Part shown: one piece after another, positions 1,786 to 13,593 of the stretch
Position numbering within the stretch: the first letter of the stretch is position 1
How the letters are laid out: every line of letters starts with the position of its first letter
Virus record (IMG/VR): IMGVR_UViG_3300011445_000012
Location: 1 to 39,695 of that record
Direction: 5' to 3' (one strand)
DNA length: 39,695 nucleotides
DNA from: a virus
Notes under the pieces: generated by a model
Told to the model about the DNA's origin: nothing
Databases searched by the model: none
The model's input: only the letters and a program-made list of their open reading frames with translations
Position numbers and translations under genes: made by a program

Positions 1786-1925
1786 CCGAACATCCTCCAC
1801 ACGCCAAACGCCAGGAGCATCGCCGCCACGACCATCACCAGCCACACGACCACGCCCATCCCATCGGTTTCGCGCGTGTAGAAGCCGTCGTCGTCGTAGT
1901 CGAGCGGCCCGCGGCCATCGTTCAC
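1782..1925 (-). CDS. Small single-span membrane protein (47 aa)
   Basis: The GTG start at 1925 overlaps the portal stop codon, and the stop overlaps the ATG of the next gene, so it is tightly coupled to both. The first 23 residues are acidic and polar with a run of Asp. They are followed by one strong hydrophobic helix (about residues 25-44, VVVWLVMVVAAMLLAFGVW) and a short basic end, consistent with a single-pass membrane protein. Function is unknown. The coupling and clean hydrophobic profile support a real gene. Confidence 0.7.
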   Translation of the reverse strand: MNDGRGPLDYDDDGFYTRETDGMGVVVWLVMVVAAMLLAFGVWRMFG

Positions 1926-4330
1926 TGCAGTGCTCCGGTCACCGGCACGCTCACGCCGCCGATCACGTTGCCCATGCTATCGGTCTGCACGTCGAGCTTG
2001 CGCGGGGCCACCAGGGCCATCGCGATCGCACTGCCGACACGCTCGGCGATCGCCGCGATCCCCTCCAGCATCAGGATGGTGTCAGGCGCCGGCTCGCGCG
2101 CGGCCAGCGTCGGCGCCGGCATCGGCGTGCCGTCTTCCATCGACGAGCGCACCTGCTCGGTCGTCCCGCGCACGCCCTCGATCACCGTTCCCAGGTCGGT
2201 CTGGGCCGGCGCCGGGGCGCCTACGGCCTCCGCCTTCGCGCGCAGCCCAAGGTGCTCGGCGTACAGTTCGCCCGCGACACCGATCAGCGTCGTCTCGACC
2301 TTCGTGCGCGCGTCCAGCTGCGCCTTGGCAATCGCCGCCTGCGCGTCGGCCTGGATCTTCTGCTGGTTCGCGGCAGCGCCGGCCTGCACGTCGGCCATCT
2401 TCACTTCTTGGCCCTGCTTCAGCTGCGCGTTCTCCTGCTGCATCTGCTGCATCGCCTGCTGCATCTGCTGCAACTGGCCCTGCGCCTGCTGCAGTTGCTG
2501 GACCATCTGCGGGTCCGGCGGACGCTGGCCCTGCGCCTTCGCCGCCTCCATCGCCTGGATCTGCGGCGGCAGCAGCACCTTGAAGCGTTCCGCGGCCTCC
2601 TTCGCGTCGGGCATGTCGACCACCGCCAGGAGCTTGTCGCCGAGGATCTGCGCAGCCGGCGGGAAGGCCTGGAATAGCTCCACCATCGTCTCGCGCGTCG
2701 CCTCCCGCTTGGTGCTATCGGACGGCCCAGACTCGACGGTCGCCGCGTACTCGCCCCGCGTCAGGTCGTTGTCAGGATTGGTCGCGTACTTGACCGCACC
2801 GTCGCCGCCGGCCGGGTCCACCACCGGCACCTGCTGGTTGACCTCGCCCATGCGCTGCGCGCCGTCGCGGTCGATCAGCGGCACCATCCGCTGCGTGTCG
2901 TAGTAGTACGGGATCAGGTCGTCGAGCACCGTCCCCGTGTGCTTGATCGCGCGCGACAGGTTGTCCAGGTAGTGGAAGGTCGCGTTGTCGCCCTGCGCCT
3001 CACGCGCGAGGATCGCCTTGCCGCTGGTCTCCTGCGCCCGCATCCCGAGGTTGTTCTCGTACATGCCGATGGTCGAGCGAATCTGCGACTGCATCGTCTG
3101 CACCCAGTTCGCCCAGCCCACGTCGAGGTCGCTGCCAGGCTGGCGCGTGGGCTGCGGAATCGCGTTGCCGGCCGCGTCGACGTGGTTGAACGGCAGGACG
3201 GCGTACTCTTCCTCGTTGCTCGACTCGTAGAGCGTCTCGAAGCCCTTGATTGCCGCCTTCGCCGCGACCCACGGCGCCTTCGGCGTCTGGCTCAATCTGA
3301 TGGCCATCTGCGTCATGCCGTAGTTGAGCAGCTGCTGCGGCTCGCGCGCAGGCCGGATCAGGCCCTGGTAGATGCGCTCGCCATCGATCACCACCTCGTC
3401 GCCAATGCAGGCCACGATCGGCACGTACGCGCCCTTCCACGGGTGCCGCTCCAGCACCCGCTCGCCGCCCCCCAGCGTGTACCAGTCGCAGCGCGTACGC
3501 GTTGCCTTGCGCGTCTTCGTCACCCGCGCCTTGGGGTCCACCTTGCCGGCCTTCTGGTCGCGCACGAGTTCATCGGCCCAGAGCACCGCGCCGTCGTCGA
3601 GCAGCACGAGCTCGTCCTCGGACTCGACGATCTCATAGTAGTCGGCGATGAAGACGACCTGCTTATTGCTCGTCGGGTACCAGAGCGCGGTCTCTTCCGT
3701 CGTCGCCCACGAGAGCGGCGCGCCCTTGAAGCGGCGCTCGTAGTCCGACTTGCGAATCTTCTCGGTGACGAAGCCCCACTTGATGTCGGACGCGTCCGGC
3801 TCCTGGTAGTCAGGGTCGATGCGCACCGCTTGCGGGTCCGTCAGCACGTCGATCTTCAGGCACTGGTTGAAGCTCTTCTTCGACTCGTAGTCGGAGCGGA
3901 TCCGCCAGTACCCGCGGCCACCGACAACAGCGTGCAGGAAGCCCGTGTCGTACGCGGCCTCGGCCTTGCTCTTCACCTCCACGCCGCGCACAAGCTCCTG
4001 CTTCAGCTGCGCGACCTTCTCGCTCGCGTCACCACCGGCCGGCGAGAATTTGATGCCTGGGCGTCCCTGGCGCTGGTCGTTCACGACCTGGCTGACGAAC
4101 TGCTTCAGCTGGTTGAACTCCAGGCTCGGCAGGCGCCACTTCTTGCGCTTGGCGCGCGTGTCCTGGTCCCACTGCTCGCCACGCTTGTACACGAAGCGCG
4201 TGTCGTCGAGCGCCGCCTTGCGGTTGTCGCCGTCGGCCTCCTCGGCGTACGCGAACCGCTCATTGGCACGGGCGAGCACCTCGTCGTCCCCCGGTTCGCT
4301 TGTCTTCGTGTCGGGGGACTCGTCGGCCAT
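1922..4330 (-). CDS. Portal protein, P22 gp1-like (802 aa)
   Basis: This is the portal ring subunit at the packaging vertex, which binds terminase and passes DNA. The length and overall pattern match the P22-like portal family: an N-terminal segment with ERFAYAEEADGDNRKAAL, a central DNA-channel region, and a conserved stretch around GMRAQETSGKAILAREAQGD. The C-terminal part (roughly residues 600-645) is a Gln/Met-rich coiled coil, as expected for a long barrel domain. The frame is open upstream, but ATG 4330 gives the natural N-terminus (MADESPDTK) and lies 13 nt after the terL stop. The surrounding order terS-terL-portal is the usual packaging module. Confidence 0.93.
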   Translation of the reverse strand: MADESPDTKTSEPGDDEVLARANERFAYAEEADGDNRKAALDDTRFVYKRGEQWDQDTRAKRKKWRLPSLEFNQLKQFVSQVVNDQRQGRPGIKFSPAGGDASEKVAQLKQELVRGVEVKSKAEAAYDTGFLHAVVGGRGYWRIRSDYESKKSFNQCLKIDVLTDPQAVRIDPDYQEPDASDIKWGFVTEKIRKSDYERRFKGAPLSWATTEETALWYPTSNKQVVFIADYYEIVESEDELVLLDDGAVLWADELVRDQKAGKVDPKARVTKTRKATRTRCDWYTLGGGERVLERHPWKGAYVPIVACIGDEVVIDGERIYQGLIRPAREPQQLLNYGMTQMAIRLSQTPKAPWVAAKAAIKGFETLYESSNEEEYAVLPFNHVDAAGNAIPQPTRQPGSDLDVGWANWVQTMQSQIRSTIGMYENNLGMRAQETSGKAILAREAQGDNATFHYLDNLSRAIKHTGTVLDDLIPYYYDTQRMVPLIDRDGAQRMGEVNQQVPVVDPAGGDGAVKYATNPDNDLTRGEYAATVESGPSDSTKREATRETMVELFQAFPPAAQILGDKLLAVVDMPDAKEAAERFKVLLPPQIQAMEAAKAQGQRPPDPQMVQQLQQAQGQLQQMQQAMQQMQQENAQLKQGQEVKMADVQAGAAANQQKIQADAQAAIAKAQLDARTKVETTLIGVAGELYAEHLGLRAKAEAVGAPAPAQTDLGTVIEGVRGTTEQVRSSMEDGTPMPAPTLAAREPAPDTILMLEGIAAIAERVGSAIAMALVAPRKLDVQTDSMGNVIGGVSVPVTGALQ

Positions 4331-4343
4331 TGGTCCTGTCGTC

Positions 4344-5693
4344 CTACCTGCCCATGGGGAACAGCGTGCCGCCTGATGGCGGACGCCCGAATACGTAGTC
4401 CTTCTCGGTGCTGGACACCATGCCGGGGAATAGCTCCGAGAAGGCCCAGACCATCGCATCGGCCCGGTTCGGCGACCGTTCGCCGACATAGCCGCTCGTG
4501 GTGAAGCCCGCAAGCTCCTCCTCGAGGTCGCGGAAGTAGCCAACCAAGCGCACCTTGCCCAGTTCGCACAAGCTCGAGATCGGCTCCGCACGCACGACCT
4601 TGCCGCGGCTCGCGGTCACCATGCGGAACGGCGTGTTCTGCCGCGCGGTCTGGATCACGTGCTTGACCATCGCGCCGCCGTAGTTCACCTCGCCCACGAT
4701 CACGTCGGCGCGGTGCCGGTCGTACGCATTCGTGGCCACCTTGCCCCAGCTTGCCGGGCCCGCGCGCAGCGTCAGGTCCTCGAGCAGGTAGCCGTTGCCA
4801 TCAGTGCCGAGCCCCGCGACGACGAGCCCAATGGCGTCGTTCTCGGCGTTGTCGACATCGTCCGCACCGGACGGGTCGACGGCCACGACGATGCGCTGCA
4901 TGTCTGGCAAGGGCGAGTCGATGACACGCCAGCGGTCCAGGTGCTCCTCGGGGAACAACGCACCCGGCGTTGCCTCGCGGAACTCGCCGTCGAGGAAGCG
5001 CCGCCGCATCCGCGCCGACATGCCCTCCAGCGTCGCGATGTAGCCCTCGGGCAGGTTGTCGAGGTTGTCCCTCGGGTTCATCTGGATCGCCCGGTAGTCG
5101 AAGCGATTGCGCAGTGGCTCGCGCGACTCGGGGTCGATCCCTTGCACGAACGCGCGATAGGTCCAGTGCGCGCGGTCAGGCGGGTTGCAGTCGTAGTACA
5201 TCTTCAGCGCGAGCGGCTTGGTCACTTCGCCGACGATCGCCGTCGCGCGCTGCGCCAGGCGGGTGAGCGCCAGGTTGCGGCTCGCCCACGGGATCTGGCT
5301 GCACTCGTTGAGGAAGATCGTCGCGTACTCGTTGCCGAGCACCTTCTCGGTCCGCTCCTTCTCGTCGAGCCCACCGAACCAGACTTCGCTATCGTTCTGC
5401 GTACGCGCGAACCACTGCGAGCGGTTGATCTGGTAGTCGACCTCGGGGTAGCAAAGCTCCATCACCCGTGGGAACGTGTCCATCACGATCGCCGACACGA
5501 TCGAGTTGAACCGGAAGCGCATCATCGCGTGCCTCGAGCGGCGCGCCTTCACCGCGCGCATCACGACGGCGCGCACGGCGAGGAACGTCTTGCCCGAGCG
5601 GCTGCCGCCGAACATCATGCAGTGCGTCGCCGGGCCGGCGAGCAGTGCGTTTGCGGCCGTCTGCTTTTCGGTGAGCTTAAAGCTCGGCATCAA
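4344..5693 (-). CDS. Terminase large subunit (449 aa)
   Basis: This is the ATP-driven packaging motor and genome-cutting nuclease. Walker A GGSRSGKT is at residues 29-36 and a Walker B-like TIFLNE at 125-130, with E130 the likely catalytic glutamate. The C-terminal RNase H-like nuclease has D273 (VVAVDPSGADD), E335 (VIVGEVNYGG) and D412 (NRADAMVWA). The length is normal for the family. The start at 5693 overlaps the small-subunit gene by 17 nt, suggesting translational coupling. The set is intact and no key residue is missing. With a P22-type portal this suggests headful packaging, which is an inference. Confidence 0.95.
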   Translation of the reverse strand: MMPSFKLTEKQTAANALLAGPATHCMMFGGSRSGKTFLAVRAVVMRAVKARRSRHAMMRFRFNSIVSAIVMDTFPRVMELCYPEVDYQINRSQWFARTQNDSEVWFGGLDEKERTEKVLGNEYATIFLNECSQIPWASRNLALTRLAQRATAIVGEVTKPLALKMYYDCNPPDRAHWTYRAFVQGIDPESREPLRNRFDYRAIQMNPRDNLDNLPEGYIATLEGMSARMRRRFLDGEFREATPGALFPEEHLDRWRVIDSPLPDMQRIVVAVDPSGADDVDNAENDAIGLVVAGLGTDGNGYLLEDLTLRAGPASWGKVATNAYDRHRADVIVGEVNYGGAMVKHVIQTARQNTPFRMVTASRGKVVRAEPISSLCELGKVRLVGYFRDLEEELAGFTTSGYVGERSPNRADAMVWAFSELFPGMVSSTEKDYVFGRPPSGGTLFPMGR

Positions 5694-5970
5694 CCGCGCT
5701 TACCTGCAGCACGATTGGGCCACCGCCCTCACCCGTCAGCGGTTGCGTAGGCTTTCCGTCGAGACGGTCGCCAAGCTCCTTCAGCGCGCCCATGTCGCCC
5801 TCGTGGCAGCGGTCGAGCAGCTTGCCGGCGAGCTCGTCGAGCGCGGCGATGCGCCCGTGCGCGCTGCGCTTCTCCAGTGCCCGCTCGATCGCGCTGCGCC
5901 AAACGCGCTCCTTTGCGGCGTACTGGTTGCCGATTGCGGCGGCCAAGTTACTTGCCCATCTCGCTGACAC
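5677..5970 (-). CDS. Terminase small subunit (97 aa)
   Basis: This short helical protein lies directly before the large terminase gene and overlaps it. It carries a central ALKELGDRLDGKPTQPL segment that is common in small terminase or packaging-recognition proteins. The C-terminus is the flexible Gly/Val-rich tail often seen there. The start is uncertain: GTG 5970 gives 97 residues but has only a GGA directly in front of it, immediately after an intrinsic terminator. A TTG ahead of LAAAIGNQYA is an alternative. An ATG at 5959 is in another frame and closes after three codons. The role is assigned from position and the C-terminal motif. Confidence 0.8.
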   Translation of the reverse strand: MSARWASNLAAAIGNQYAAKERVWRSAIERALEKRSAHGRIAALDELAGKLLDRCHEGDMGALKELGDRLDGKPTQPLTGEGGGPIVLQVSAVDAEL

Positions 5971-5972
5971 TC

Positions 5973-6003
5973 CAAAGAAAAAGCCCAGTGTTTAGCTGGG
6001 CTT
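5973..6003 (-). terminator. Intrinsic terminator in the late leader, before terS
   Basis: There is a perfect 8-bp stem (5981-5988 with 5996-6003, AAGCCCAG) around a 7-nt loop. On the minus strand it is followed by TTTTTCTTT (5982-5974). It lies about 75-100 nt downstream of a strong promoter and directly in front of the first late gene, as lambda tR' does after PR'. Confidence 0.88.
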
Positions 6004-6075
6004 ATGTGTTTCCGGCGCCGACGCGCAGCCCTCCAAGAATGGCTGCACGCGCGGCGAATGCCGGGGGGCGAATTG

Positions 6076-6111
6076 TGGGGGGATTATGGGATCGTCAGTC
6101 GACGGCGTCAA
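6076..6111 (-). promoter_or_regulatory. Putative late promoter (PR'-like)
   Basis: On the minus strand there is TTGACG (6111-6106), a 17-nt spacer and CATAAT (6088-6083), close to the sigma-70 consensus. The -35 box lies inside the last codons of the 155-aa gene, and the predicted start is near 6076. The leader to the terminator is short and has no gene. It also contains a second stem (6025-6030 with 6041-6046). Promoter, short leader, terminator and late genes in this order match the Q-controlled late switch of lambdoid phages. Confidence 0.65.
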
Positions 6112-6562
6112 TAGCCCCGAGGATGGCGTGGTTGACGATCGCGCGGGCCCGTTGCTTGCGGATGACATCGGGGAGTAGGAGCGCGGCGGCCAGGAGCTTG
6201 TAGGCCAGGTCGAGGGAGGCGTCGAAGCCCCGGATGGTGCCGCGGCGCTCGCCGGCAGCCTTGGCGGCGACCCGGAGGCAGGCGCCCGGATCCCAGCGGT
6301 GGACGTGCCAGAGCCTCAACAGCGCGTGCGGATAGAGCGGGAGGGTGCATACCCCATCCTCCACCCGTTGCGCGTCGTGTAGGTCGAATTTGGGCCGATT
6401 GCGGGGCGGTGCGAGGGTCTCCCAGTCCACCTCGGCGCCGCGCGGGGCGCGAAACCAGCCTTCGACGGACACGGCGTGGCCTGGCAGCCGGCGCCAGCGG
6501 ACCACGTCGCCCCAGTTGTCGCACCGCTCGACGAGGGCGGGGTCAGGAGTGGTCGAACTCAT
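6095..6562 (-). CDS. Putative late-gene regulator, possible Q-type antiterminator (155 aa)
   Basis: This is the last gene of the leftward early operon, ending exactly where the putative late promoter begins. The ATG at 6562 (MSSTTPDPALVERC) overlaps the previous gene by 20 nt. Visible patterns are NWGDVVRWRRLPG near the N-terminus, then AEVDWETLAPPRNRP, then DAQRVEDGVCTLPLYPHA. A helix-turn-helix-like, sigma-region-like stretch follows (LLRLWHVHRWDPGACLRVA). I recall similar layouts in small phage proteins found at the antiterminator position, but I cannot prove homology. The Q-like role is therefore inferred from position and from the adjacent promoter-terminator pair. It could instead be an unrelated DNA-binding protein. 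Confidence 0.6.
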   Translation of the reverse strand: MSSTTPDPALVERCDNWGDVVRWRRLPGHAVSVEGWFRAPRGAEVDWETLAPPRNRPKFDLHDAQRVEDGVCTLPLYPHALLRLWHVHRWDPGACLRVAAKAAGERRGTIRGFDASLDLAYKLLAAALLLPDVIRKQRARAIVNHAILGAIDAVD

Positions 6563-6722
6563 GCTTCGGGGGCGTGAGCCGGCACGTCTGGTGCTCGCCC
6601 ATAGGCGGGAGAGCGCGGTCCCAGCGGCAGCGGACAACGTGGGCGGGCTTGTGGGCTTTGGCGGTTTCGTGGTCGACGGGGAGTGCATGGCGGCAGTTTC
6701 CGCAGGTGCGCTTAGAGATCAC
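6543..6722 (-). CDS. Small Cys/His-rich putative zinc-binding protein (59 aa)
   Basis: GTG 6722 gives MISKRTCGNCRHALPVDH with a CxxC pair, followed by RCRW and TCRL cysteines and several histidines, which suggests one zinc-ribbon-like site. The frame is also open to 6788, which would give 81 residues but overlap the previous gene by 77 nt. I prefer the shorter form, which overlaps by 11 nt. The 3' end overlaps the next gene by 20 nt. Function is unknown. Confidence 0.6.
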   Translation of the reverse strand: MISKRTCGNCRHALPVDHETAKAHKPAHVVRCRWDRALPPMGEHQTCRLTPPKHEFDHS

Positions 6723-6936
6723 GGCCGGGGAACCCCAGGTCGCCGCCGGGTGCTGACGTGTCGGGCACGCCAGGAACGGGGGGTACACGGCGATCGGGGA
6801 CGGGTCTGCCAGCGTGCACGGTCTCTCCAGTGGTGAGGTTGGTGGTCATGCGGTAAGCGCCCATGCCCAGGGCGCGGAGGTCGTCGACAAACTGGTCGAT
6901 CGAAAAAGTCTCGAGTTTTCTTGACAGGTCACGCAT
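6712..6936 (-). CDS. Hypothetical protein (74 aa)
   Basis: ATG 6936 overlaps the helicase stop by 8 nt, so the gene is probably coupled. The N-terminal half is a short helical segment (LETFSIDQFVDDLRALGMG). The C-terminal half is rich in Pro, Gly and Val and looks unstructured. No family is recognised. Its position directly after the helicase suggests an accessory of replication, but this is only context. Confidence 0.6.
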   Translation of the reverse strand: MRDLSRKLETFSIDQFVDDLRALGMGAYRMTTNLTTGETVHAGRPVPDRRVPPVPGVPDTSAPGGDLGFPGRDL

Positions 6937-7819
6937 AGCGTTCGGCCTTGCCGGTCATCACGTCGCGGATGTAGGGCACGTCGACGTAGGTGCCGGTGGT
7001 CTTGCGGTAGCGCAGGGTCGCGAGCCCGAGGTGCCCGTTCGCTTTGTGGCGCACCTTCTGGACGTGGATCTGCACCTCGTCCGAGTCTGGGTCGGTCTGG
7101 TCGCGGTGCACGGTGATGATGTTGTCCGATTTGTTGTACCAGTGCGCGGATCCGCTGATGTCGTACGGTCGCGGGACCGGGATCGAGCCGTCCTTGTTCT
7201 TGAAAATCTTCGCCGGGTGTACGACGAGCCAGCAGTGGACGTGGAACTCGCGCACCATGCGCACGACGTGGCCGAGCATCCACGAGATGTAGTCGGTCTC
7301 GGTCATCCCGTGGCGGTCGTGGTCCATGGTGTTCCATGGGTCGAGCACGACGCCGAACGGCACGCCGATCCTGCGATGCGCGACGGCGGTCGCCATCAGG
7401 TTCTCTGGCGAGAAGTCCTGGCTCTTCGGGTGCAGGAAGCGGATCCGCTCGCAGACCCAGGCGGCGCCTGCGTCGTACTCGGCGACGGTCATGCGTGGCG
7501 TGGGGCCTGGACCGAACGGCTTGCCGACACGCTTCTCGACGAGCTTGACCAGGTGCGTCTCCGTCGGGTGGTTCTCGGGCGAGAAGACGGTGAAATGCCA
7601 GCCACTGTCGGCGGCCAGGTTGATCAGCATCGCGTCGACGAACTCTGACTTGCCCGACTGCGGCATCCCGGTGACCACGGTCCACTGGCCTGGCGAGACG
7701 GTGTAGAGCTCGTCGACGCAGCGCCAGCCGGTGCTCGATCCGCGCGGCAGGCCGCCGGACAGGTAAAGCTCGCGGCCGGCGTTGATGATCCAGGCCGGGT
7801 CGATGAAGTGCTGGCTCAT
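6929..7819 (-). CDS. Replicative DNA helicase, DnaB/Twinkle-like (296 aa)
   Basis: This is a RecA-fold hexameric helicase that would unwind DNA at the phage fork. Walker A GMPQSGKS is at residues 51-58, Walker B FGVVLDPWN ends near D160-N163, and a conserved VVHPAK is at about 199-204. The segment ISGSAHWYNKSDNIITVHRD (221-240) matches the H3/H4 region of DnaB/Twinkle proteins. At 296 residues it has the helicase domain but no room for a primase or long N-terminal domain. ATG 7819 overlaps the stop of the putative initiator gene, so the two are likely made together. No phage polymerase was found, so it probably works with host replication proteins. Confidence 0.9.
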   Translation of the reverse strand: MSQHFIDPAWIINAGRELYLSGGLPRGSSTGWRCVDELYTVSPGQWTVVTGMPQSGKSEFVDAMLINLAADSGWHFTVFSPENHPTETHLVKLVEKRVGKPFGPGPTPRMTVAEYDAGAAWVCERIRFLHPKSQDFSPENLMATAVAHRRIGVPFGVVLDPWNTMDHDRHGMTETDYISWMLGHVVRMVREFHVHCWLVVHPAKIFKNKDGSIPVPRPYDISGSAHWYNKSDNIITVHRDQTDPDSDEVQIHVQKVRHKANGHLGLATLRYRKTTGTYVDVPYIRDVMTGKAERYA

Positions 7820-8529
7820 AGCGCCACCCGGTTGGGCTTACCCGCGCCGGCAAGGCCGGCCCAGTCTTTGCGGATGGCGTTCATGAAGGCCTCGTCCCAG
7901 TCGACGTAGGTGTAGCCCTTCGCTCGTGCCTGGCTGACGAAGTGCTCGAGGCGCTGGTCGAGCAGGAAGTGGCCCTTCGCTGCCGCCCACGCCCGGACCC
8001 GGTCAGAGATTCCAAAACCTACGGGAATGGGGACGCGCGGAGCGCGTCGTGTTTCCCTTGCATCCCTTCTCTTCACTTCACTTCTCTTCACTTCACTTCT
8101 GTCGACTGCAGTCTGACTGTAGACTGTCACTGGTCCGACCTTAGTCGGTCCGTGTGCCGACTTTTCGCGGACAAGCTCCTTGATTTCCTTGCACTCGACC
8201 GGGTCGGGTGGGCGCGGGTGTTTGCCGTTTATGTAGCGCAACCGCTGCCTGAACTTCGGCACGTGCGCGTACCGCTTGTTGTCAACGTCGTACATGCGCA
8301 CGAGGTCGGCGTCGCACAACGCGGACATGATCTCGGCGACCTGGGCGCGGTCGGTCAGCGTCAGCCAGTCACGCCACAAGCGCCACAGAGCGCCCGGCCC
8401 GGCCTCGAAGTTGCCGAGGTCGTCAGCCTCCAGCACGCAGGCGATGAACGCCAAGCGGTGCGTGTTGCGTTTCAGCCCGAGCAGCGCGTCAGACTTCAGC
8501 GCCTCGTCGCGAATAATTCGGTCTGGCAT
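7816..8529 (-). CDS. Putative replication initiation protein (237 aa)
   Basis: This gene sits directly before the helicase and overlaps it by 4 nt, the normal place for a lambda O/P- or DnaT-like initiator or helicase loader. The N-terminal 115 residues look like a winged-helix domain (FIACVLEADDLGNFEAGP, then ADLVRMYDVDNKRYAHVPKF). They are followed by a charged low-complexity linker containing a doubled SEVKR. The last 80 residues end in YVDWDEAFMNAIRKDW, a pattern common at the C-terminus of phage replication proteins. The assignment rests on domain layout and context; the exact loading or origin-binding function is inferred. Confidence 0.7.
   Translation of the reverse strand: MPDRIIRDEALKSDALLGLKRNTHRLAFIACVLEADDLGNFEAGPGALWRLWRDWLTLTDRAQVAEIMSALCDADLVRMYDVDNKRYAHVPKFRQRLRYINGKHPRPPDPVECKEIKELVREKSAHGPTKVGPVTVYSQTAVDRSEVKRSEVKRRDARETRRAPRVPIPVGFGISDRVRAWAAAKGHFLLDQRLEHFVSQARAKGYTYVDWDEAFMNAIRKDWAGLAGAGKPNRVAL
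8067..8096. repeat. In-frame 15-bp tandem duplication in the initiator gene
   Basis: The unit TTCTCTTCACTTCAC occurs twice in direct succession (8067-8081 and 8082-8096) and is followed by a partial third start. On the coding strand it encodes SEVKR twice within the linker of the initiator, so it changes linker length without changing frame. Confidence 0.9.
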
Positions 8530-9546: not shown

Positions 9547-9750
9547 CTACCGTCCGTCGGTCTGGGCCGGCCGCTTGTCGGCACGGTCAGCGCGTAGCCG
9601 GCCACGAGTGAGCACCTCGGCCTGGTACTGCCGGCCGACCGGCACGCGCCCGTTCGACTTCCACTCGCTGACGCTGGGGGGGCTGATGCCGAAAGCCTCG
9701 GCCGTCGCGGAGACGCCGTGGAAGTAGGCGATCAGGTCTTCTGGAGTCAT
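9547..9750 (-). CDS. Cro-like transcriptional regulator (67 aa)
   Basis: This small HTH protein is the first gene of the leftward operon. The segment YFHGVSATAEAFGISPPSVS is a typical Cro/YdaS-type helix-turn-helix, followed by EWKSNGRVPVGRQYQAEVL as in phage Cro proteins. The length is normal for the family. It faces a divergent promoter region with three symmetric sites that it probably binds. No Shine-Dalgarno sequence precedes ATG 9750, and the predicted transcription start falls at about the same base, so the message may be leaderless. No second CI-like repressor was found. Confidence 0.85.
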   Translation of the reverse strand: MTPEDLIAYFHGVSATAEAFGISPPSVSEWKSNGRVPVGRQYQAEVLTRGRLRADRADKRPAQTDGR

Positions 9751-9757
9751 ACCGCGC

Positions 9758-9787
9758 AGTGTAGGTGAACCTTCTGTGACGAGTCAA
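9758..9787 (-). promoter_or_regulatory. Leftward early promoter for the Cro-like operon
   Basis: On the minus strand there is TTGACT (9787-9782), an 18-nt spacer and TACACT (9763-9758). The expected start is near 9751, adjacent to the ATG at 9750. An operator (9762-9773) covers the spacer and touches the -10 box, so binding there should repress this promoter. Confidence 0.7.
9762..9773. promoter_or_regulatory. Operator site 3 (TAGG-N4-CCTT)
   Basis: The sequence TAGGTGAACCTT is a near-perfect inverted repeat. It overlaps the leftward early promoter between its -35 and -10 boxes. The centre is 46 bp from operator 1. It is a likely site for the adjacent Cro-like protein, which would mean autorepression. 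Confidence 0.65.
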
Positions 9788-9807: not shown

Positions 9808-9819
9808 TAGGCGAACCTA
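9808..9819. promoter_or_regulatory. Operator site 1 (TAGG-N4-CCTA)
   Basis: TAGGCGAACCTA has perfect TAGG/CCTA half-sites in an AT-rich setting. It directly abuts the -35 box of the rightward promoter. Its centre is 24 bp from that of site 2, roughly two helical turns, so dimers could bind on nearly the same face. Confidence 0.7.
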
Positions 9820-9848
9820 TTGACACCGAATTAGGCGGGCCTTATATT
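9820..9848 (+). promoter_or_regulatory. Rightward early promoter
   Basis: A consensus TTGACA (9820-9825), a 17-nt spacer and TATATT (9843-9848) make this the best sigma-70 match seen in the window. The expected start is near 9855, about 23 nt before the first gene. Operators flank or overlap both boxes, so it should be strong and repressible. Confidence 0.85.
9832..9843. promoter_or_regulatory. Operator site 2 (TAGG-N4-CCTT)
   Basis: TAGGCGGGCCTT lies in the spacer of the rightward promoter and reaches the first base of its -10 box. It shares the same half-sites as the other two copies. Confidence 0.65.
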
Positions 9849-12109: not shown

Positions 12110-12319
12110 ATGAACCCGTACCAAAGCGCCTACCAGGCCTTCGCCGGCAAGCCGCCCCTCGTGACGTGCCGCCGCTGCGCCGGCTACTACACCGTCACCA
12201 AGTGCCTGCAGGGCAGCGACATCGAGTACCCGTGCCCCGCGTGCGATGGCGAGGGCGTCGTCGAAGCCAACCACGAGTGGGCCACCGGCAACCGCCCAGG
12301 AGACCGCCGCTATGAGTGA
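12110..12319 (+). CDS. DnaJ-type zinc-ribbon peptide (69 aa)
   Basis: It carries CRRCAGYYTV and, about 20 residues on, CPACDGEGVV, matching the paired CxxCxGxG zinc motifs of DnaJ-like proteins, but no J-domain is present. The ATG at 12110 lies just after the previous stop, with GAGGAG ahead. It directly precedes the ERF gene and overlaps it by 8 nt. It may be a small accessory zinc protein. Confidence 0.7.
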   Translation: MNPYQSAYQAFAGKPPLVTCRRCAGYYTVTKCLQGSDIEYPCPACDGEGVVEANHEWATGNRPGDRRYE

Positions 12320-12962
12320 CCACGACGGCCTGCCATCCCGCTCCGGGCTCGTGTACGCCGCCATCCTCACCGTCGCCACGCGCATGGCGCGCGAGGGCGT
12401 GGCGAAGGATCGCGTCAACGCCCAGCAGGACTACCGCTTCCGCGGCATCGACGACTTCTACAACGCTCTCGCGCCGGCCCTCGTCGCCGCGCGGCTGTTC
12501 ATCGTCCCGCAGTGCCTGGAGCGCGAAGTGGTCGAGCGCAAGAGCGGCACCGGCAAGGCGCTGTTCTACGTGACCGTCAAGATGGTCTTCGACCTCACGT
12601 CCGCCGACGACGGCAGCGCGCTCCGTGTCGGGCCGATATACGGGGAGGCGATGGACTCCGCCGACAAGGCCACCAACAAGGCGATGTCGGCCGCGTACAA
12701 GTACGCCGTGATGCAGGCCTTCGCCATCCCCGTCGCCGGGCAGACGCTCGACGGCGAAGCGGACGACGAGACGGACCTGGTCCCGGCGACCTTCACCGCC
12801 GAGCAGCAGGCGGCCCTGGAGCAGCTGCGCGACGTGGCCAAGCAAGGCCTCGACGCGCTACGCGAAGCGTGGGAGCAGCAGGACAAGCACACGCGCATCG
12901 CGCTGGCCGGCGAACTCGTGGCGCTGAAGAAGACCGCCGACGGAGTGAGCAATGTCGCCTGA
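12312..12962 (+). CDS. ERF-family single-strand annealing protein (216 aa)
   Basis: This protein would anneal complementary single strands during phage recombination. ATG 12312 follows GGAGACC. The N-terminal 130 residues match the ERF pattern: AREGVAKDRVNAQQDYRFRG, then DDFYNALAPALVAARLFIVP, then the ATNKAMSAAYKYAVMQAFAI region shared by ERF proteins. The C-terminal third is a helical, charged tail, as is common. It overlaps the exonuclease gene by 11 nt, and such annealing/exonuclease pairs usually work together on DNA ends, concatemers and host-independent repair. Confidence 0.9.
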   Translation: MSDHDGLPSRSGLVYAAILTVATRMAREGVAKDRVNAQQDYRFRGIDDFYNALAPALVAARLFIVPQCLEREVVERKSGTGKALFYVTVKMVFDLTSADDGSALRVGPIYGEAMDSADKATNKAMSAAYKYAVMQAFAIPVAGQTLDGEADDETDLVPATFTAEQQAALEQLRDVAKQGLDALREAWEQQDKHTRIALAGELVALKKTADGVSNVA

Positions 12963-13593
12963 AGAACGCGACGATGCCATCGCCGCCTGGCTCCTTGAGC
13001 GGGCCGGCAAGTTCAACGCGTCGTGCGCGCCGCGCGCGCTCACCCGCCTGAAGAAAGGCGGATGGTCGACCGACCGCGGCAAGTACGCGCAGGAGATCAT
13101 CGCCGAGCGCCTCACGGGCGACAGTGTGAAGCACTACGTCAACGACGCCATGCGCTGGGGCATCGAGCAGCAGGCGCCCGCCATCGCCGCCTACGAGGCC
13201 TACACGGGGCAGCTGGTCAAAGCACTGGAGTACGTGTCGATCCCGCACCCGCGCATCGAGAACCTCTCCTCCAGCCCAGACGGGCTCGTCGGCAGCGACG
13301 GGCTGATCGAGGTCAAGTGCCCGACGACGCCGGTCTTCATCGCCTGGAAGATGGATCCGGGCATCCCCGAGGATCACCTGCAGCAGATCCTCCTCCAGAT
13401 CGCCGTCACCGGCCGCAAGTGGTGCGACTTCTGCGCGTACGACCCGCGCATCCGCGGCGGACCCGACCAGCAGCTGATCATTCGCCGCTTCATCCCGACA
13501 CCCCAGGCGATCGCCGACATCGAAAAGGATGCCGAGGAGTTTCTCGCCGAGGTCGACGCGATGTTCGACGCGTTCGTCGGAGCGCCCGCGTGA
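12952..13593 (+). CDS. YqaJ-type (lambda-exonuclease-like) recombination nuclease (213 aa)
   Basis: This is a 5'-3' exonuclease that makes the single strands used by the ERF protein. Catalytic residues of the lambda-exonuclease/YqaJ fold are visible: E72 in RWGIEQQAPAI, D110 in SSSPDGLV, and E120 and K122 in GLIEVKCP. The Gln-rich helix HLQQILLQIAVTG and the following YDPR are also typical. Its length of 213 residues fits the family. It overlaps both the ERF gene and the next gene, confirming operon structure. Confidence 0.9.
   Translation: MSPEERDDAIAAWLLERAGKFNASCAPRALTRLKKGGWSTDRGKYAQEIIAERLTGDSVKHYVNDAMRWGIEQQAPAIAAYEAYTGQLVKALEYVSIPHPRIENLSSSPDGLVGSDGLIEVKCPTTPVFIAWKMDPGIPEDHLQQILLQIAVTGRKWCDFCAYDPRIRGGPDQQLIIRRFIPTPQAIADIEKDAEEFLAEVDAMFDAFVGAPA

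Follow-up and report, generated by a model that had tools for sequence, protein, structure and literature searches.

The type of late-gene switch considered here is already known from several systems. In phage P22, the annotation gives the order regulator gene (gp23, of the lambda Q kind), late promoter PR', terminator tR' and late genes. The Q protein of phage 21 (Q21, PF06530) is a small protein encoded just ahead of its late promoter; its binding site in promoter DNA adjoins a sigma-dependent pause, and the protein makes a ring within the RNA exit channel that admits single-stranded RNA only (PMC6606751). AlpA of Pseudomonas aeruginosa also works with a promoter and an intrinsic terminator and requires A+1 and T+5 of the motif CACGAT at -1 to +5 (PMC9371919), although it controls a host cell-death operon. 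In HK022, the put RNA forms two stem-loops soon after the promoter and ahead of the terminators, at early promoters and with no dedicated protein (PMC9378689). The nearest precedent found is VG_p50, a 134-aa protein of the KS9-related Variovorax phage VarioGold, which was assigned to PF06530 by HHpred (PMC9658991).

Here we focus on a locus in a 39,695-bp viral record (IMGVR_UViG_3300011445_000012; GC 66.9%), which was analyzed over its full length and is called the window below. We consider it highly probable that the locus is a Q-type late-gene switch of a P22-type phage and that the 155-aa protein encoded there is a Q antiterminator of the phage 21 kind. The protein belongs to the family phrog_19609, which is newly assigned to such a switch; the literature covered was that under open licence, and an earlier naming elsewhere is possible.

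Organization of the Locus

A P22-like portal protein (PF16510), together with scaffold and major head protein families, places the window among the P22-type phages. Its leftward early operon, which comprises the genes listed in Table 1 and two further short frames, ends with the 155-aa gene, whose frame stays open upstream of the ATG at 6562 as far as an ATG at 6688. The late genes follow on the same strand with terS first, in contrast to P22, in which the lysis genes are the first after tR'. At the other contig end, again on this strand, scaffold, coat, head-closure and endolysin genes are found from 35.6 to 19.7 kb. Such a split of the late genes over both contig ends would be expected of a permuted genome.

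Two observations concern the early regions. The palindrome-like sequence TAGGYGRRCCTW is present in three perfect copies at 9762-9773, 9808-9819 and 9832-9843, and its near-matches total five, a number reached in none of 100 shuffles. The copies surround the divergent promoter-like sites at 9787 (minus) and 9820 (plus), with the HTH regulator gene (9547-9750) adjoining, and the cluster is likely a lambda-type operator region. In the rightward early operon (12246-13593, plus strand), an Erf-like annealing protein is followed by a RecE-like exonuclease, forming a recombination pair.

Table 1. Positions of the genes and of the observed or predicted regulatory elements of the switch in the window.
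Feature	Position	Strand	Remarks
HTH regulator	9547-9750	-	phrog_409; leftward early gene
Replication-initiator-like protein	7816-8529	-	leftward early gene
DnaB-like helicase	6929-7819	-	leftward early gene
Gene of the 155-aa Q-like putative antiterminator	6095-6562	-	phrog_19609; start ATG 6562, stop codon 6097-6095
Late promoter PR', TTGACG-17-CATAAT	6083-6111 (read 6111-6083)	-	sigma-70-type; 10/12 consensus matches
Promoter spacer CCGTCGACTGACGATCC	6089-6105	-	candidate place of a Q binding element, by analogy with Q21 and AlpA
CACAAT	6072-6077	-	candidate -10-like sigma-dependent pause element; -1 to +5 if the start is A6076
Small leader hairpin H1, CGGC-attc-GCCG	6052-6063	-	+14 to +25; position as in relatives
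Long GC-rich leader hairpin	6012-6064	-	predicted to supersede H1 once transcribed; inner stem H2 at ~6050-6021
Intrinsic terminator tR'	5981-6003 (read 6003-5981)	-	8-bp perfect stem, loop of 7, -11.8 kcal/mol
U-rich tract of tR'	~5980-5972	-	directly after the terminator stem
terS-like gene, 97 aa	5677-5970	-	first late gene; homologues directly upstream of terL in relatives
Terminase large subunit (terL)	4344-5693	-	follows terS
P22-like portal protein	1922-4591	-	PF16510, E 9.2e-146

Family and Predicted Fold of the 155-aa Protein

On its own, the 155-aa protein matches only phrog_19609, a family listed with function unknown (E 9.2e-5, residues 12-128). Pfam (at E up to 10) and NCBIfam return no match, and neither does a search of viral contigs and phage records with this protein alone. 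Conversely, an independent profile, built without the window protein, recovers it with an E of 9e-8 among 10,889 frames. The route to the family led through the records of terminase relatives, which were searched for phrog_19609 and gave the loci L078 and L046 first; widening the family scan to the complete alignment, which includes the window protein, yielded no new relatives. Members of phrog_19609 were found in 63 of the 398 Burkholderiaceae genomes sampled (~16%) and at over 100 loci from viral contigs. They include proteins of the Burkholderia phages KS9 (gp47), BgVeeders33 and Magia, whose GenBank records annotate the gene as hypothetical and from which the window protein has diverged far (about 20-27% identity). 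Because a recognisable phrog_19609 gene was absent from 41 of the 44 terminase-relative records searched, the switch is not shared by the whole of this phage group.

The initial annotation had found the protein to be of no clearly named Q family and allowed that it might represent a new one. In an alignment of 47 family members (A5), all 47 match phrog_19609 and four match phrog_79, 'anti-termination protein Q-like', and the PF06530 HMM matches neither the window protein nor any of the 47 relatives. Compared profile to profile by hhalign with A11, a collection of PF06530-type Q proteins, A5 gave an E of 1.6e-6 to 7.6e-6 over ~113 columns at a probability of 84-90%, against at most 2.7% in 40 column-shuffled controls. 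The P22 gp23/lambda Q family (PF03589, which gp23 itself matches) was rejected as kin, since hhalign against A5 reached a probability of 1.1% over 12 columns.

AlphaFold2 modeling of the window protein and a relative (mean pLDDT 83 and 86, respectively) points in the same direction. With the relative's model, Q21 chains occupy the first 11 places among the PDB matches (Foldseek E 0.007-0.07, probability 0.99-1.00); the VIA Z of these is 9.6-7.7 over 108-123 residues, and sigma region 4 comes next with a Z of 6.4. The window model ranks Q21 first as well, albeit more weakly: Foldseek gives an E of 0.11, and the leading Q21 entries have a VIA Z of 8.1-6.6 vs. 5.9 for sigma. The predicted fold agrees with Q21 over the whole length, with about 15-18% identity in the structural alignment. 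A VIA Z near 8 in a helical protein can reflect a common helical arrangement, and therefore the argument rests jointly on the fold ranking and the profile match. Sequence profiles run against PDB chains found sigma region 4 and not Q21. The fold match to AlpA is weak: the window model reaches a VIA Z of 4.3 (7xya) and the relative's model one of 5.3 (7xyb), both under sigma region 4. The profile comparison with Q families and the structure prediction, which had been put forward as a check, favor PF06530 and the Q21 fold, and the profile comparison disfavors PF03589. Together, sequence profiles and models support the view that the window protein is a distant relative of the phage 21 Q kind which the PF06530 HMM misses.

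The predicted fold also contains a sigma-region-4-like HTH, a trait in common with Q21, and this feature is at the root of the main rival explanation, namely that the protein is an initiation activator at PR' resembling sigma region 4, with the terminator only ending early transcripts or attenuating weakly. Initiation activation is the presumed role of the ArpU/RinA-type late activators in Gram-positive phages, and single family members have hits to phrog_248 'transcriptional activator' (E 4.2e-5) and to phrog_36 'transcriptional regulator'. However, Q21 outranks every sigma region 4 in the structural comparison and aligns over the full length, including an N-terminal part that is absent from sigma region 4. 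Moreover, the terminator stands between the promoter and all of the late genes, and PR' is already so close to consensus that it should need no activator. We therefore regard initiation activation as improbable, and retain Q-type antitermination as the reading of the locus.

Promoter and Terminator in the Window and in Relatives

From the letters alone, a leftward promoter had been seen to begin in the last codons of the final early gene, followed by a leader of roughly 100 nt, a perfect terminator and then terS, and this description is confirmed. The -35 element of PR' lies within the last codons of the 155-aa frame, a start at A6076 is predicted to leave 73 nt (6076-6004) ahead of the terminator stem and to give a terminated RNA of ~100 nt, and the terS-like gene begins at 5970. 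A sigma-70 promoter and then an intrinsic terminator thus precede the late genes, as in a Q-type switch. A scan of the whole window found no further promoter-like site on the late strand downstream of PR', and no strong intrinsic terminator besides tR' on either strand (one strong perfect-stem terminator vs. 0.02 expected). In the promoter spacer, no repeat resembling the two TGAGCA subsites that form the direct-repeat site of Q21 was recognised by eye.

The same elements are found behind the gene in relatives. A terminator hairpin (-13 kcal/mol or better, a threshold that replaced a perfect-stem count found to be too strict) lies within 250 nt downstream in 88 of 138 non-redundant members, compared with 24 of 276 random same-strand stretches; upstream of the members it is found in 2 of 138. 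For 42 of the 138 relatives, there is no terminator within 250 nt downstream. In L078 and L046, both from P22-type phages with related terminases, the phrog_19609 gene is situated just upstream of the terminase genes and is followed by promoter, leader and terminator. KS9 and BgVeeders33 carry these elements directly 3' of the gene. The promoter and first transcribed bases are common to many relatives, for example as ACAATTTGATTCCGG or AGATTACCGATTCCG.

With regard to the -35 region, many diverged relatives (L131, L147, L169, L194, L224 and others) have TTGTAAAC, which is two bases off consensus. It is kept also where the -35 falls outside the coding frame (L194), and may belong to a site bound by Q.

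These data bear on a second alternative, in which the terminator just ends the early operon, the promoter is there by chance, late expression comes from an unrecognised promoter or from read-through of early transcription, and the protein has another role. About three promoter-like sites are expected in the window, and the three seen (9820 plus, 9787 minus and 6111 minus, vs. 3.2 expected) are no enrichment, which leaves room for a chance promoter. However, a promoter with a strong perfect-stem terminator at most 160 nt downstream is seen a single time in the window and never in 150 random Markov windows, and the order promoter, leader, terminator recurs behind a homologous gene in many diverged relatives. 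Finally, CACAAT has three copies in the whole window, counting both strands, and the exact placement of one of them at -1 to +5 of PR' would be a coincidence. We consider this alternative very improbable in comparison with a Q-type switch.

Leader RNA

The leader of the window is strongly structured: together with the terminator it folds with a z of -4.45, and 0 of 200 shuffles are equally stable. In the computed folding of the growing transcript, H1 forms first and is then displaced by the longer hairpin. In relatives, a small hairpin H1 is found at about +12 to +15, after the conserved start bases. In 11 length-matched leaders it is paired in 95.5% of cells, with two-sided changes in 6 cells, which 0 of 500 shuffles reach; this count leans towards structure, because the hairpin guided both the choice and the trimming of the leaders. 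RNAalifold on the plain MAFFT leader alignment predicted no pairs, as the H1 arms are slipped by a base there. Over 49 leaders, the median folding z is -2.2 vs. -2.1 for reversed sequences, and is therefore no evidence for strand-specific structure.

The window transcript would begin with ACAATT and carry H1 from +14, in agreement with the relatives in position and pattern, which is suggestive only. A covariance model built from relatives without the window did not recover the window leader; it gave H1 alone at 5.9 bits (E 6.8), a score no better than at other places in the window, and for this reason leader homology is not claimed. An Rfam search of 5800-6700 yielded no match above chance. 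Likewise, the window leader is not recognisably homologous to those of KS9, BgVeeders33 and Magia, although the proteins share phrog_19609, and leader hairpins of the window kind are not described for Q21 in PMC6606751.

Elsewhere in the family, the element is placed differently. A shorter Burkholderiaceae subfamily (L132, L134, L135, L136, L143, L148, L151, L161 and L178) has the promoter and start ACAATCTGATCCGGTCAACGTGC-n3-GCACGACCG, which includes a perfect, longer H1, about 210-225 nt downstream of the gene. Weak matches to the leader element are also found farther away, separated from the Q-like gene by other genes and roughly 600-1200 nt downstream of it (L186:3014-3051, E 0.08; L280:3655-3730, E 0.04).

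That the leader RNA itself antiterminates, with the protein absent from the process or a helper only, is hardly credible: the strong structure of the leader, the covariation of H1 in relatives and the two stem-loops just past the promoter in HK022 put RNA (PMC9378689) would suit it, but the element is associated with a Q-like gene, put works at early promoters without a dedicated protein (PMC9378689), and the covariance model does not recognise the element in the window. A contribution of the RNA to Q-type antitermination is a separate matter. Nascent H1, fixed in position and covarying in relatives, might help to load or stabilise the Q-like protein, so that leader RNA would be used besides promoter DNA and pause, but we think this doubtful.

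Proposed Mechanism

For the late-switch reading, the analysis establishes the DNA elements and the order of the genes, the protein's family and predicted fold, and the conserved context; we infer the start site, the pause, DNA binding, the exit-channel ring and read-through. RNA polymerase would initiate at PR' near A6076, and sigma-70 would hold the -10-like CACAAT just past the start, causing the polymerase to pause. Without the phage protein, the polymerase would go on for ~100 nt and stop at the terminator (6003-5981). The 155-aa Q, if present, would bind promoter DNA and load onto the sigma-paused polymerase, and would prevent terminator hairpins from forming by making the RNA exit channel narrower. 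Transcription would then run through terS, terL and portal and continue, beyond the permuted end of the contig, into the genes for head, tail and lysis, opening a late operon of ~28 kb on one strand. Q-type antitermination is preferred because of the exit-channel ring of Q21 and because CACAAT in the window matches the register of CACGAT in AlpA, both at -1 to +5. The initial annotation had taken the 155-aa protein for the antiterminator, and its position, family and predicted fold, as well as the recurrent promoter, leader and terminator, support this; by profile comparison, the protein is not of the P22 gp23/lambda Q kind (PF03589).

Significance

The proposed switch explains how a single promoter could govern the whole structural gene set of the phage. 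In addition, phrog_19609, listed until now as function unknown, gains a testable function in late-gene antitermination, and its distribution suggests that 21-type Q proteins extend far beyond enterobacterial phages. How Q is loaded could be studied on the numerous natural templates of promoter, leader and terminator in the relatives, whose conserved hairpin still calls for an explanation.
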